Source: Bacteroidales bacterium (GTDB lineage Bacteria > Bacteroidota > Bacteroidia > Bacteroidales > UBA932). Taken from it: 64,000 nt of DNA. The stretch covers positions 62,001 through 126,000 of the forward strand of contig JAFRRW010000010.1 of NCBI GenBank assembly GCA_017427885.1. Direction: 5' to 3'. The translations under genes and the position numbers were made by a program. Below the pieces are notes generated by a model that worked only from the letters and a program-made list of their open reading frames with translations, was not told the DNA's origin and ran no database searches. Positions 15,065 to 18,960 of this stretch are shown piece by piece (positions within the stretch are counted from its first letter, which is position 1; each line of letters starts with the position of its first letter).

Positions 15065-15991
15065 TTAAGCCTCTTCCCACTGCTTGCGGAGCAGGGCGAC
15101 GGCAGCGGTGAGGACCTCCTTCGGGTCTCCGAGCATACCGCATTCGAAGCTTACATATTTGTCATAGCCCATCTGCTTGAGGGCGCGGAAGCCGTCGACG
15201 TAGTTATCGAGTTCCCCGTCTTCGCCCGGCGTCTTGCGACGGCCGCGGCTGGCGATGTGGACGTGCTGGAGATACTCGGTTCCGGCCGACCAGAAGGCGC
15301 CGTAGTCGGAGGTCTCCTCCTTCATATGCCAGAAATCTCCCATGCACTTTACTCCCTTGCTGTCGGAATCGCGGGCGATCGCGGCCGCATCCGCCACAAG
15401 CCTCAGATAGAAGCATTCTCCGCGGTTGAGGGGCTCAAGGATGACGGTGGTGCCGTTCTCCACGGCGAATTCACCGAGGTCATGAAGCTGCTCGCAGAGA
15501 TAGTCCCTGGTCGCCTGGGTGTGGGGCTTGCACGGCTCCTGACCGTTGAAGGCGGGAACCATTATGACTCCGGTGGCTCCGAGTTTGCCGGCGGCGACTA
15601 TTATCTCCCTCATAGAGGTATCGAAAAGTTTCTTCACGGCAGGATCCTCGGCGAGTATGAAGCCCTGGAAACCAGCGCAGATGGCAGACACCTTGATCGG
15701 CCTGCCCTCGAGGGCGTTCTTGATCTCATCTACCCTGTCGGCAAGGCCGCGGCCTCCGGGTTCGAAACCGGTGACTCCCAGGCTTTCCATGAAATCGAGT
15801 TTCTCCTTCAATGTTTCTCCGGGAGTGAGGCCTTCCTGGAAAGAAATATTGAGGGAACGTGTGCAGCACTCATTTCCCTTGCAGCAATCCTTTTTCGAAT
15901 TTCCGCAGGAGGAAAGGGAGAACGCAGAAGAGGACACGGCAAGGGCTGCCGCCCCTGCCATTGTGTCCTTCAGAAAATGTCTCCTGTCCAT
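15065..15991 (-). CDS. Exported sugar phosphate isomerase/epimerase-like TIM-barrel lipoprotein
   Basis: A 308-residue protein of the xylose-isomerase-like TIM-barrel family. The N-terminus has a Tat-like RRHFLK and a lipobox ending at C29, followed by a cysteine-rich patch (C36, C37, C42, C43). Likely metal ligands are E186 (ILEPLN), D219 (MGDFWH), H245 (VHIA) and E283 (SFECG). Family members include epimerases, and in gut Bacteroides metal-dependent lyases/hydratases that act on 3-keto glycosides. It follows an exported Gfo/Idh oxidoreductase by 3 bp. The two probably act in sequence on the same sugar outside the cytoplasm; substrate unknown. Confidence 0.87.
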   Translation of the reverse strand: MDRRHFLKDTMAGAAALAVSSSAFSLSSCGNSKKDCCKGNECCTRSLNISFQEGLTPGETLKEKLDFMESLGVTGFEPGGRGLADRVDEIKNALEGRPIKVSAICAGFQGFILAEDPAVKKLFDTSMREIIVAAGKLGATGVIMVPAFNGQEPCKPHTQATRDYLCEQLHDLGEFAVENGTTVILEPLNRGECFYLRLVADAAAIARDSDSKGVKCMGDFWHMKEETSDYGAFWSAGTEYLQHVHIASRGRRKTPGEDGELDNYVDGFRALKQMGYDKYVSFECGMLGDPKEVLTAAVALLRKQWEEA

Positions 15992-15994
15992 AAC

Positions 15995-17353
15995 CTACCT
16001 CGTCTGGTTGCCCTGGGGAGTTCCGGGAATGGCGACGAGATACTTGGACATATCCATCGGGCCGTTCTCAAGCTTCTCGGGCAGATAGTCCATATCGGCG
16101 GCGCTGATGGTGTCCCAATCGACCTCCTTGCCGGTATAAGCGGACTCACGTCCCATCACTCCGGCGAGGGTCGACTGTGCAGTGTAGGTGGCCTCGTCGT
16201 GGGCTTCTCCGCGGCGGATGTGGTTCACCCAGTCAACGTGCTCGAGGACGTAGGGGTTGTTCTGGGTATGCTCGGCGTTATTGGCATCCCAGTCGAACTG
16301 CCAGATGATGTTGCCCTTGAGGTCCCTGATGGTGTTGTCCTGGCTGTTCCAGCAGCCCTTGGTGCCCTGGACGAACTCGCTCACGTTGTTGGCGCAGCCG
16401 TCGATCTGGCGGCACATGCTGTGCAGGTGGACGTCGTTCTCGAATACGAAATCGACGCTGAAGTTGTCATACTGGTCTCCGGTGATCCTCCTCTGGCGGC
16501 TTCCCATACCGACGGCCTTGAGAGGCTGCTTGCCGGTCATCCACATGAACACGTCGATGTTGTGGACGTGCTGCTCGCAGATATGGTCGCCGGACAGCCA
16601 CTTCCAATTGACCCAGTCGCGGATCATGTATTCCATATCGCTCCAGCCGGGTTTGCGTTCGCGATACCAGAGCATGCCGCCGTTCCAATAGACGTTTCCT
16701 CCGGTAATCTCGCCAATGATGCCGTCCTGGATGAGCTGGAAAGCCTCCACGTACGGACGCTCGTGGTGACGCTGCACTCCGGTGACCACGCTGAGTCCCT
16801 TGGCGAGAGCCTGCTTGGCGGTGGCCATAACCTGGCGGTAGCCCTTGGAATCGACAGCGACGGGTTTCTCAAGGAAGGAATGTACGCCCTTCTCGGTAGC
16901 ATAGGCGAACATCATGGGACGGAAAACGGGAGGTGTCGTCAGGATTACCATGTCGACTCCGGAGTCGATGACCTTCTTGTAGGCGTCGAAGCCAACGAAG
17001 CAATGGTCTTCGGGAACGTCCTGGCCGTGCTCCTCCTTAAGGTTCTTGCGAAGGGCCTCGACCCTGTCGGGATAGGTGTCACCGAGGGCGGTGACGGTGA
17101 TGCCGTCGGCAGCCTCGAGGAGGTTCACGATGGCGCCCGAACCGCGTCCGCCGCAGCCGATGACTCCGGCTTTCAGGGGTTTGCCGTCGATGGCCTTGTC
17201 CATCAGGTCGGGAACATAGTAGGAACCTTTCTCACGGAGAGGAAGTGTGCCCTTCCTGGTGCAGGAAGCGAGGACGGTACTCCCGGCGATACCGGCGGCG
17301 CCGATCATTGCCGAGTAGGAGAGGAAGTCTCTTCTGTTAAGTGTCTTGCTCAT
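15995..17353 (-). CDS. Exported Gfo/Idh/MocA-family oxidoreductase
   Basis: A 452-residue NAD(P)-dependent sugar oxidoreductase. Tat-like NRRDFL at residues 6-11 and a lipobox ending at C31 predict an exported lipoprotein. The Rossmann motif GVIGCGGRG is at 63-71 and the catalytic-lysine motif EKP at 162-164. The long insertion-rich C-terminal domain (WKWLSGDHICEQHVHNIDVFMW) is typical of the secreted Bacteroidetes branch. It sits 15 bp after the cytochrome/SUMF gene and 3 bp before the isomerase-like gene. The exported location requires a bound cofactor or an external electron acceptor; the neighbouring cytochrome is a candidate by inference only. Confidence 0.9.
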   Translation of the reverse strand: MSKTLNRRDFLSYSAMIGAAGIAGSTVLASCTRKGTLPLREKGSYYVPDLMDKAIDGKPLKAGVIGCGGRGSGAIVNLLEAADGITVTALGDTYPDRVEALRKNLKEEHGQDVPEDHCFVGFDAYKKVIDSGVDMVILTTPPVFRPMMFAYATEKGVHSFLEKPVAVDSKGYRQVMATAKQALAKGLSVVTGVQRHHERPYVEAFQLIQDGIIGEITGGNVYWNGGMLWYRERKPGWSDMEYMIRDWVNWKWLSGDHICEQHVHNIDVFMWMTGKQPLKAVGMGSRQRRITGDQYDNFSVDFVFENDVHLHSMCRQIDGCANNVSEFVQGTKGCWNSQDNTIRDLKGNIIWQFDWDANNAEHTQNNPYVLEHVDWVNHIRRGEAHDEATYTAQSTLAGVMGRESAYTGKEVDWDTISAADMDYLPEKLENGPMDMSKYLVAIPGTPQGNQTR

Positions 17354-17368
17354 GTCGTAGTGTTTTTA

Positions 17369-18898
17369 TTAATTGATATATGTTTGAGTTTCAATATTTT
17401 CAGGGACCTCGCAGACAACCCTGAAACCGATGCCGACGATGTCGGAGTACCACCAGATGCTCTTGGGATTCTGGGGATCGGTAACGAGCCACTTGTCATT
17501 TTCGGTATGGGAGCGGGCGGCGCAGCGGACATCTCCGGGGGAGGAATCGAAGTTTCCTCCCCTAACCACATATTCAGTTCCGGATTCAGGACCCTTCGGA
17601 TCAGTGGCCGGACCTCCGGAATAGGCGTCTGGAGCATACCAGTCCGAACAATACTCCATAACGTTGCCAAGCATATTCCTGAGTCCGAAAGGATTGGCTC
17701 CAACGGACGAGGGCTCGGAAGTCCGTCCGCCGCTGTCCCCGGCATAGACCACATACCTGTCAAGCGTGTCCTTCCTGGCAGGGAAAACCTTGCCCAGCAG
17801 CCCCTTGCCTTCAAGTTTGGCAGGGTTGCCCTCGAAGAAATACGGCGTGGACGTCCCTCCCCTGGCGGCATACTCCCATTCCGCCTCGGTCGGGAGCCTG
17901 TACTTCCTGCCCGTCTTGAGGGAAAGCCACTGGCAGAACGTTTCCGCGGAATAATGGGACATCGTGATAGCAGGGAGTGAACCCATTCCCCATCCCTGGT
18001 CGGGATACCCGAAAGGAGGGGTGGGACCGCTGACCGCATCGGCATCAGGCCGGGAATTGTTGGCGTATATCACGGAAGGAGGGGTACGTCCCTCGGACAT
18101 AGTCTCGTTGTAGAAGGACCAGAACTGGTCCCAGGTCACCTCGTACCGGCCCATGAAGAACGGGGATACGGTCACCTCCCTCACCGGACCCTCGTCGCTT
18201 CGGCGGCAAGGCTCGGAATCCGGGCTTCCCATAAGGAAAGTACCGCCGGGAACCGCCACCATCTCGATGGACGCCGGAGTGCCGGGCACGGTCTCGACGA
18301 AGTCCTCGAACCTGTCCACGACGGCGGCCGAAGGATGGATCTCCCCGCCGCCGACCTCGACCTTTCCTACGAGCTGCTCGTGCTTGTAGTTCGGGTCGTA
18401 GTGACCGGCGTCAAGGTGGCAGCTGATGCACTGGAGTCCAGCTTTCTCCTTGTTGTCGTCGTAGTAGAGATGGGCCGTTATGCCTTCGTCGGTTATCCCG
18501 TCAGGGTACAGGTTCTCGTGGCATTCCTCGCAGGAGGCGTTGAACACCGTCCCCTTGGCGTGGGAGAGTTCGCCCATCCTGTCCCAGTCGAACTTTTCCT
18601 TGTCCTTGGTGTAGTAAGCCCACATATGAGAAGCGCCAAGGCGCATCTTGGTGGTGGTATGTGAGAGGGTTCCCTTGGGAGGGAGATGGCAGGCGGCGCA
18701 GTCCGTGACGGTTCCGCTGCCGTTGTTGTGATGGACCGACTGCTTCCAGCTATCGTCGGCAGCAGTGTGGACGTGGCATGACATGCAGTAAGAATTGGTG
18801 GAAGTCTTCTCCATCGTGTAATTGAATCCCACCATCAGGGAGACCAGGACGGCGAGGCATCCCAGTACGAGCAGGAGAATGACGATCCACTTTTTCAT
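17369..18898 (-). CDS. NapC/NrfH-type tetraheme cytochrome c fused to a SUMF1-like domain
   Basis: A 509-residue fusion. One N-terminal membrane anchor (about 4-24) is followed by four CxxCH heme sites at 38-42, 67-71, 123-127 and 157-161, the pattern of the NapC/NirT/NrfH quinol-oxidising cytochromes. From about residue 215 comes a formylglycine-generating-enzyme-like (SUMF1) domain: PGGTFLMGSP, EVTWDQFW, LPTEAEWEYAARGG, GNVMEYCSDWY, RCAARS. The cysteine pair used by true formylglycine-generating enzymes in the GSF...C....C region is missing (here GGNFDSSPGDVRCAARS), so sulfatase activation is unlikely; a lectin-like or structural role is plausible. First gene of a three-gene operon with a good promoter. 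Confidence 0.9.
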   Translation of the reverse strand: MKKWIVILLLVLGCLAVLVSLMVGFNYTMEKTSTNSYCMSCHVHTAADDSWKQSVHHNNGSGTVTDCAACHLPPKGTLSHTTTKMRLGASHMWAYYTKDKEKFDWDRMGELSHAKGTVFNASCEECHENLYPDGITDEGITAHLYYDDNKEKAGLQCISCHLDAGHYDPNYKHEQLVGKVEVGGGEIHPSAAVVDRFEDFVETVPGTPASIEMVAVPGGTFLMGSPDSEPCRRSDEGPVREVTVSPFFMGRYEVTWDQFWSFYNETMSEGRTPPSVIYANNSRPDADAVSGPTPPFGYPDQGWGMGSLPAITMSHYSAETFCQWLSLKTGRKYRLPTEAEWEYAARGGTSTPYFFEGNPAKLEGKGLLGKVFPARKDTLDRYVVYAGDSGGRTSEPSSVGANPFGLRNMLGNVMEYCSDWYAPDAYSGGPATDPKGPESGTEYVVRGGNFDSSPGDVRCAARSHTENDKWLVTDPQNPKSIWWYSDIVGIGFRVVCEVPENIETQTYIN

Positions 18899-18930: not shown

Positions 18931-18960
18931 CAAATATAACAATTCCATATAATTATACAA
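18931..18960 (-). promoter_or_regulatory. Promoter of the cytochrome-SUMF / Gfo-Idh / isomerase operon
   Basis: On the minus strand TTG (18960-18958), 19-bp spacer, TATATTTG (18938-18931). The start codon is 32 bp downstream. Confidence 0.8.

Follow-up and report, generated by a model that had tools for sequence, protein, structure and literature searches.

How does an exported sugar oxidoreductase that depends on nicotinamide adenine dinucleotide (NAD) turn over its cofactor away from the cytoplasmic NAD pool? To our knowledge this is an open question for the 3-keto-glycoside pathway, by which gut Bacteroidales process disaccharides and plant glucosinolates, and it is raised by a three-gene locus of a Bacteroidales bacterium (GCA_017427885.1; a genome of 1.87 Mb in 17 contigs, 81% complete) that we analysed within a stretch of 64,000 nucleotides (contig JAFRRW010000010.1, positions 62,001 to 126,000; hereafter the window). 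The trio lies on the minus strand in the order CYT, GFO, TIM. CYT (509 amino acids; 17369-18898) is a membrane-anchored NapC/NirT-type tetraheme cytochrome fused to a formylglycine-generating enzyme (FGE)/SUMF1-like domain; GFO (452 amino acids; 15995-17353) is a predicted exported Gfo/Idh oxidoreductase and TIM (308 amino acids; 15065-15991) a predicted exported xylose-isomerase-like TIM barrel, both with a lipoprotein signal of the twin-arginine translocation (Tat) type. Pfam assignments of all three proteins lie above gathering scores, and the intergenic gaps of 15 and 3 bp are those given by an earlier note on this DNA, which had proposed an extracytoplasmic keto-sugar redox module. We consider it somewhat more probable than its opposite that the trio is an accessory redox module linking the periplasmic 3-keto-glycoside chemistry of Bacteroidota to menaquinone. 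The title of the earlier note named the cytochrome and not its partner, the degenerate FGE/SUMF1 domain, which we regard as the key to the module.

The arrangement of the trio shows strong conservation. When genome contigs were scanned with CYT, 234 relatives emerged; the 80 best of them and 12 from further genomes make up a set of 92 loci, which are not 92 independent cases, since some contigs are near-identical. Record titles among the best 80 include Bacteroidales, Candidatus Cryptobacteroides, Alistipes, Rikenellaceae and Phocaeicola abscessus. GFO directly follows CYT on the same strand in 87/87 loci having more than 1.5 kb downstream, and TIM is the third gene in 80 of the 84 having more than 2.6 kb. 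Three loci have another exported TIM barrel instead: in L043 it is the gene immediately behind GFO, and in L044 and L045 it is encoded on the opposite strand; no TIM barrel was found at locus L156. The CYT-GFO order is retained down to about 48-50% protein identity, on which ground chance clustering was rejected. Among 61 genomes, the source genome included, the full-length CYT fusion and a GFO orthologue occur in the same 13, and CYT matches at E<=1e-100 were obtained in 51 of 393 genomes of the order. Across 395 genomes of the class the fusion is present in four, with GFO adjacent in all (61-63% in the three others), and seven further genomes of the class hold only GFO homologues at about 45%; GFO paralogues at 43-49% are also present without CYT in G377, G167 and G049. 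The conservation on which the earlier note had made its proposal depend is therefore confirmed for Bacteroidales, and the observation of the trio is real.

The tetraheme domain of CYT (residues 3-170; 18389-18892) matches PF03264 Cytochrom_NNT at 94.7 bits against a gathering score of 24.1, and the N-terminal part of the protein contains a hydrophobic segment (residues 4-27; 18818-18889) that reads as a membrane anchor; a structure model, which is poor (mean pLDDT, the predicted local distance difference test, 67.8) and was built without haem, places a helix at residues 2-31. The four haem motifs are CMSCH (18773-18787), CAACH (18686-18700), CEECH (18518-18532) and CISCH (18416-18430), with CxxCH kept at the first three in 92/92 sequences and at all four in 91/92. 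By PF03264, four CxxCH motifs and the N-terminal anchor, CYT can be assigned to the NapC/NirT (NrfH) family, and the NCBIfam NrfH and TorC models match it below their cut-offs. The single NapC domain gave no phmmer match in PDB at E<=0.1, and a profile of the tetraheme domain (alignment A3) aligns to NrfH (2j7a, chain C) at E 2.1e-6. In that alignment, with numbering counted from its printed form, His44 of CYT stands in the column of NrfH Met49, Lys84 in that of Lys82 and Asp91 in that of Asp89.

Lys84, the counterpart of the menaquinol-site lysine Lys82, is invariant in the 32-row A1 and 26-row A3 alignments, and residue 91 is Asp in 87 of 92 sequences and His in five. The haem-1 motif CXXCHXM of NrfH was not encountered, the motif in CYT being followed by Val-His so that CHxH (His44) holds in 92/92. 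According to excerpts of the sources, which is the form in which the literature is drawn on here and below, Met49 and Asp89 are important to menaquinol oxidation by NrfH (PMC10654088), a lysine has been implicated in quinone interaction, and the haem-1 methionine is conserved in NrfH and some NapC and absent in CymA (PMC13390432); because of this absence, the methionine is not strictly defining for the NapC/NirT family. At the positions of the NrfH quinone site, CYT thus retains the lysine throughout and the acidic residue in most members, and it differs at the haem-1 methionine; the quinone-site residues support a quinone linkage. No second open reading frame with at least three CxxCH motifs was found among those of at least 100 amino acids flanking the 92 loci (L034-L125), a set in which overlapping frames had been thinned, so that a few multihaem frames could be missed, and which did not extend to whole genomes; there is hence no hint of a nitrite-reductase partner nearby, and in this respect the proposal of the earlier note, to which a pairing with nitrite or other respiratory genes would have been a danger, survived the search for multihaem frames.

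The other half of CYT proved to be the more widely shared. Its FGE/SUMF1-like domain (residues 212-465; 17504-18265) matches PF03781 FGE-sulfatase at 145.9 bits, and its best NCBIfam match is PvdO (106.9 bits, below the cut-off of 500). The catalytic cysteine pair of FGE is absent from the active-site segment in 13/13 aligned proteins, at what we take to be the position of those cysteines, and near the C-terminus all 13, fused and unfused alike, carry the signature DPQxPKSxWW, present at the end of the domain in the window as DPQNPKSIWW (17450-17479). Beyond Bacteroidales we inspected seven genomes that carry GFO homologues (about 40-45%). In six of them GFO has beside it an unfused SUMF1 protein (298-353 amino acids, with a signal-peptide-like N-terminus), and all six match PF03781; in L148 none was found beside GFO. 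A gene for ApbE (PF02424), a family of FAD:protein FMN transferases, stands beside or near GFO in five (L144, L145, L147, L148 and L150), and in the remaining two, L146 and L149, there is a Tll0287-like gene, with a single CxxCH, just upstream. A PF01261 TIM barrel with a Tat-like start is present in 6/7 and was not seen in L150, a GMC gene lies near the unfused SUMF1-GFO set in L144 (by Pfam) and L145 (by sequence), and a covalent-flavin motif scan of the open reading frames of the seven loci gave no convincing target next to ApbE.

From the shared signature and the unfused SUMF1 proteins beside GFO it follows that the SUMF1 domain, not the cytochrome, is the constant partner of GFO. The electron carrier attached to it would appear to vary, being a tetraheme fusion in Bacteroidales and an ApbE-dependent or monohaem protein elsewhere. 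We tentatively raise the possibility, to which we give less than even chances, of a new respiratory entry in which a constant DPQxPKSxWW SUMF1 adaptor connects menaquinone with an exported dehydrogenase whose NAD is captive; the adaptor is fused to a quinone-linked tetraheme domain in Bacteroidales and elsewhere stands alone, where a monohaem carrier or a flavin (ApbE) would serve it. On this reading the switch from hydride to single electrons may be made by the SUMF1 fold itself. The module also points to a role for a group of FGE/SUMF1-like proteins.

The two remaining proteins are consistent with sugar chemistry outside the cytoplasm. GFO matches PF01408 and PF22725, and its GxGxxG and EKP motifs and Rossmann fold place it in the Gfo/Idh/MocA family; across 93 GFO sequences the tested nucleotide-binding and EKP residues are invariant except Gly69 (91/93), and the lipobox cysteine is present in 90. 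The sequence scores above the TIGR01409 TAT_signal cut-off and carries RRDFL and a lipobox-like LASC. Its structure model (pLDDT 88.6) has top matches tied within one Z unit, namely a Kribbella oxidoreductase (34.6), DgpA1 (34.5), NAD-dependent glycoside hydrolases including an oxidoreductive sulfoquinovosidase (33.9-34.5) and levoglucosan dehydrogenase (34.2), followed by the P2B11 glucuronide-3-dehydrogenase (Z 31.4); such likeness of a modelled fold would not in itself indicate function. TIM matches PF01261, and its N-terminus reads RRHFLK followed by a lipobox-like LSSC, with no TIGR01409 match at E<=1e-3. The claim that all three products carry export or anchor signals is accordingly borne out, for GFO by a model match as well as its motifs and for CYT and TIM by reading of the sequence. 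Glu186, Asp219, His222 and Glu283 of TIM occur in 81/81 sequences, and His243 and His245 in at least 97%; the first four presumably form the metal site, and with this Glu-Asp-His-Glu set TIM can be classed as a probable xylose-isomerase-like metal TIM barrel. Its closest PDB entry is 3kws (400.6 bits), described as a putative sugar isomerase; 6wn6, which bears the name 3-keto-D-glucoside 4-epimerase, matches at 88.9 bits. In described routes, proteins annotated as sugar phosphate isomerases, with a TIM barrel in the cases of known structure, carry out elimination on 3-keto-glycosides or are presumed to hydrate what results, and an oxidoreductase reduces 3-keto-glucose (PMC10628242, PMC7676230).

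Is the module tied to the 3-keto-glycoside pathway? Published work on B. thetaiotaomicron describes BT2158 as a glycoside 3-dehydrogenase of the periplasm that is required for trehalose, leucrose and palatinose (PMC11300592) and BT2159-BT2156 as an operon for glucosinolate conversion (PMC12385236); in a later study, mutants in BT2157 or BT2158 showed no growth defect on raffinose-family sugars (PMC11501099). We counted the glycoside 3-dehydrogenase family BT_2158_fam (NF058561) only above its cut-off of 750 bits. Among the 61 genomes it occurs in 12/13 with the module vs 3/48 others, and among the 393 of the order in 44/51 vs 52/342 (odds ratio 35, Fisher p 4e-24, with genomes treated as independent although they are related). 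The 37 genomes of the window's genus comprise eight with both, none with the module only, two with the BT2158 family only and 27 with neither (p 1.2e-6, relatedness ignored), and 20 of the 21 tool-labelled families with the module also have a BT2158-family dehydrogenase. The source genome itself contains the pathway enzymes, with a BT2158-family gene (763.7 bits) and a PF06439 3-keto-disaccharide hydrolase gene (155.5 bits) as neighbours on contig C17, where TatC and the BT2158-family gene lie on one strand and the hydrolase gene on the other within about 5.5 kb.

Direct physical linkage of the module to a BT2158-family gene was found at four of 96 loci searched, the linked genes scoring 840-900 bits. 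In three contigs (L073, L080 and L086) CYT, GFO, TIM, ResB and CcsA follow one another on one strand with gaps of -16 to 45 bp; on that strand, 402-453 bp after CcsA, come a BT2158-family gene and a DUF1080 gene (in L073 confirmed as PF06439), and beyond these a BT2156-like TIM gene. The module and BT2158 clusters of L039 are convergent, 66 bp apart. As an observation of its own, 15/96 loci (e.g. L113, L115 and L119), two duplicate records included, have in the neighbourhood of the trio a PF06439 3-keto-disaccharide hydrolase that is matched over two stretches. The module is thus mostly found in genomes with an oxidise-and-eliminate route and may therefore plug that route into the respiratory chain. 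The link that the earlier note drew to this route is upheld by the co-occurrence, the linkage in three contigs and the convergence in a fourth, and does not extend to the identity of the window GFO, which is no BT2158 match; 25 of the 35 members of the GFO alignment A2 match NF058561 weakly.

Genes for cytochrome maturation and protein export were also surveyed. ResB and CcsA (System II haem attachment) both lie downstream of the trio in 43 of the 67 loci having more than 6 kb, and TatC is present in 57/61 genomes, among them all 13 with the module. In the source genome about 2 kb separate TatC from the gene of the BT2158 family (G000, C17:83448-87468; L160), and the two are near neighbours also in G029 (L161) and G012 (L162), as if the Tat translocase travelled with the exported dehydrogenase.

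Several features of the surroundings complete the description of the locus. A single TAnnTTTG element (TATATTTG, 18931-18938, minus strand), which we take to be a Bacteroidetes -7 promoter box, lies 32 bp upstream of the CYT start, and the motif scan found none on the minus strand inside the trio, in agreement with the single promoter that had been claimed. Across the window 26 such elements were observed vs 13.4 expected in shuffles, consistent with promoter boxes, and a sigma-70 and terminator scan was uninformative for a Bacteroidales genome. On the plus strand an antisense open frame of 907 codons (15257-17980) runs through TIM, GFO and the end of CYT; similar frames were seen in relatives, and it is most likely a by-product of codon usage. 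Elsewhere, an AGE-type epimerase lies near the trio in 13/92 loci, cytochrome bd genes lie upstream of CYT in L034 (Pfam-confirmed) and in L059, L061-L064 and L075 (by clustering), and in L164 a bd pair adjoins a BT2158-family gene and a DoxX gene.

In the mechanism that we propose, GFO would be exported folded, as a lipoprotein with bound nicotinamide (NAD), and would exchange hydride with a sugar or glycoside, oxidising or reducing it, probably at C3; TIM, as a metal-dependent barrel, would eliminate, hydrate or epimerise the keto-sugar. Docking of GFO, or of its substrate, would fall to the SUMF1-like domain of CYT, and electrons would pass between the docking site and menaquinone through the tetraheme domain of NapC type. 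The net flow would most likely run from sugar through bound NAD and haem to menaquinone, a direction preferred because the step from NADH to menaquinone is downhill (potentials of about -74 mV for menaquinol and about -320 mV for NAD), and its purpose would be to reset an exported dehydrogenase stuck in the NADH form when the keto-sugar product is lost or taken up. What the analysis itself shows is the anatomy of the genes, their conservation and synteny, the co-occurrence with BT2158-type dehydrogenases and the conserved quinone-site residues; which proteins touch, the NAD bound to GFO, the chemistry at C3, the direction in which electrons flow and the hydride-to-haem step are inferred.

A number of observations weigh against this mechanism. 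No flavin site that could convert hydride to single electrons is visible in the trio, which is its weak point, and NapC-type proteins are known as quinol dehydrogenases, i.e. for flow in the opposite direction. The window CYT is among the five sequences with His91 (codon 18626-18628, minus strand), and its haem-1 surroundings may differ from those of its relatives. GFO signals begin with RR in 63, RK in 28 and KK in two of 93 sequences, at odds with a uniform Tat reading, and the window GFO has no match to NF058561 at E<=1e-3. The BT2158 family is missing from seven of the 51 module genomes (61, 72, 75, 76, 97, 99 and 100% complete), three of which (G591, G793 and G797) are at least 97% complete, and conversely it occurs without CYT in 52/96 genomes, so that the pathway does not need the module; the relatedness of the genomes tempers the co-occurrence itself. 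CcsA is present in 11/13 module genomes vs 33/48 others and, being common regardless of the module, says little as a marker of it, and neither CcsA nor ResB was found in the source genome, at its 81% completeness. The interpretation given in the earlier note is partly supported, by the conserved trio, the quinone-site residues and the pathway co-occurrence, and is weakened by the non-RR signals of GFO and by the frequency of BT2158 without the module.

The same evidence bears on other explanations, of which the most serious reverses the flow. CYT would then oxidise menaquinol and drive GFO as a periplasmic keto-sugar reductase, keto-sugars serving as the electron acceptors of a respiration. 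Known family members do oxidise quinol (PMC10654088, PMC8840924), and CydA-/CydB-type genes near CYT in 7/92 loci tie the region to the quinol pool; however, electrons would have to move uphill from menaquinol to NAD at the values given above, and the module associates with a pathway in which the dehydrogenase acts first, for which reasons we consider this direction unlikely. Alternatively, GFO could recycle its bound NAD within each catalytic cycle, with CYT only anchoring GFO and TIM or sensing redox state. Gfo/Idh enzymes that keep the cofactor bound and work in a redox-neutral cycle have been described (PMC4628093), and excerpted accounts of GH4 and levoglucosan-type routes describe oxidation followed by re-reduction, but a scaffold needs neither four conserved haem motifs, Lys84 and a mostly conserved Asp91 nor the haem-attachment genes that accompany the operon in 43/67 loci, and GFO and TIM already carry lipoprotein anchors; we find this reading rather doubtful.

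Two further readings are far less probable than the preceding ones. That CYT serves an unrelated respiratory reductase, e.g. nitrite reductase, beside coincidental neighbours would agree with the sub-threshold NrfH and TorC matches, yet GFO adjoins CYT in 87/87 loci, the two occur in identical genome sets and the flanks of the 92 loci, the part of the genomes searched, hold no second multihaem frame; a nitrite-reductase partnership was rejected on these grounds, and the wider reading seems to us very improbable. That the SUMF1-like domain generates formylglycine in sulfatases would fit its 145.9-bit PF03781 match. The cysteine pair, at its expected position, is absent in 13/13 aligned proteins; an FGE function was rejected on this ground and is scarcely credible. 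On the preferred reading, a module connecting 3-keto-glycoside chemistry to menaquinone, the trio becomes a specific candidate, accessible to experiment, for an electron link with the menaquinone pool; if true, this would mean that part of gut glycoside breakdown is respiratory and not purely hydrolytic.

Set against known systems, the exported 3-keto-sugar route is itself known, and it is the coupling of that route to a quinone-type tetraheme through a SUMF1-like adaptor that was not encountered in searches of open-licence PMC literature; the earlier note, too, knew of no description of a cytochrome in such an operon. Closest is BT2156-BT2160 of B. thetaiotaomicron, which like the trio combines exported Gfo/Idh and TIM-barrel enzymes; the BT2158 family is mostly found in the same genomes as the module and forms one gene run with it in three contigs, but the window GFO differs from it in giving no match to its model, and no cytochrome partner is mentioned in the excerpts of PMC11300592, PMC11501099 and PMC12385236. 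LacABC of Caulobacter, which is periplasmic, and GlycDH of Rhizobium/Agrobacterium oxidise C3 without the cytoplasmic NAD pool, the Agrobacterium route continuing with TIM-barrel elimination and Gfo reduction (PMC9007349, PMC10628242); GlycDH is a flavoenzyme, whereas the trio has no flavoenzyme or GMC family match by Pfam. The glucose-fructose oxidoreductase (GFOR) of Zymomonas and aldose-aldose oxidoreductase (AAOR) of Caulobacter are redox-neutral, with no cytochrome mentioned in the excerpted accounts. PvdO, the best NCBIfam match of the SUMF1 domain, and other FGE-like proteins lack FGE activity, and CYT differs from PvdO by its tetraheme fusion and carries DPQxPKSxWW, a signature not looked for in PvdO. 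Finally, CYT resembles NapC, NrfH and CymA in PF03264, four CxxCH motifs, the N-terminal anchor and the equivalents of Lys82 and mostly Asp89, and differs from them in its fusion to a SUMF1-like domain, in having no second multihaem gene in the flanks surveyed and in CHxH instead of CHxM at haem 1.

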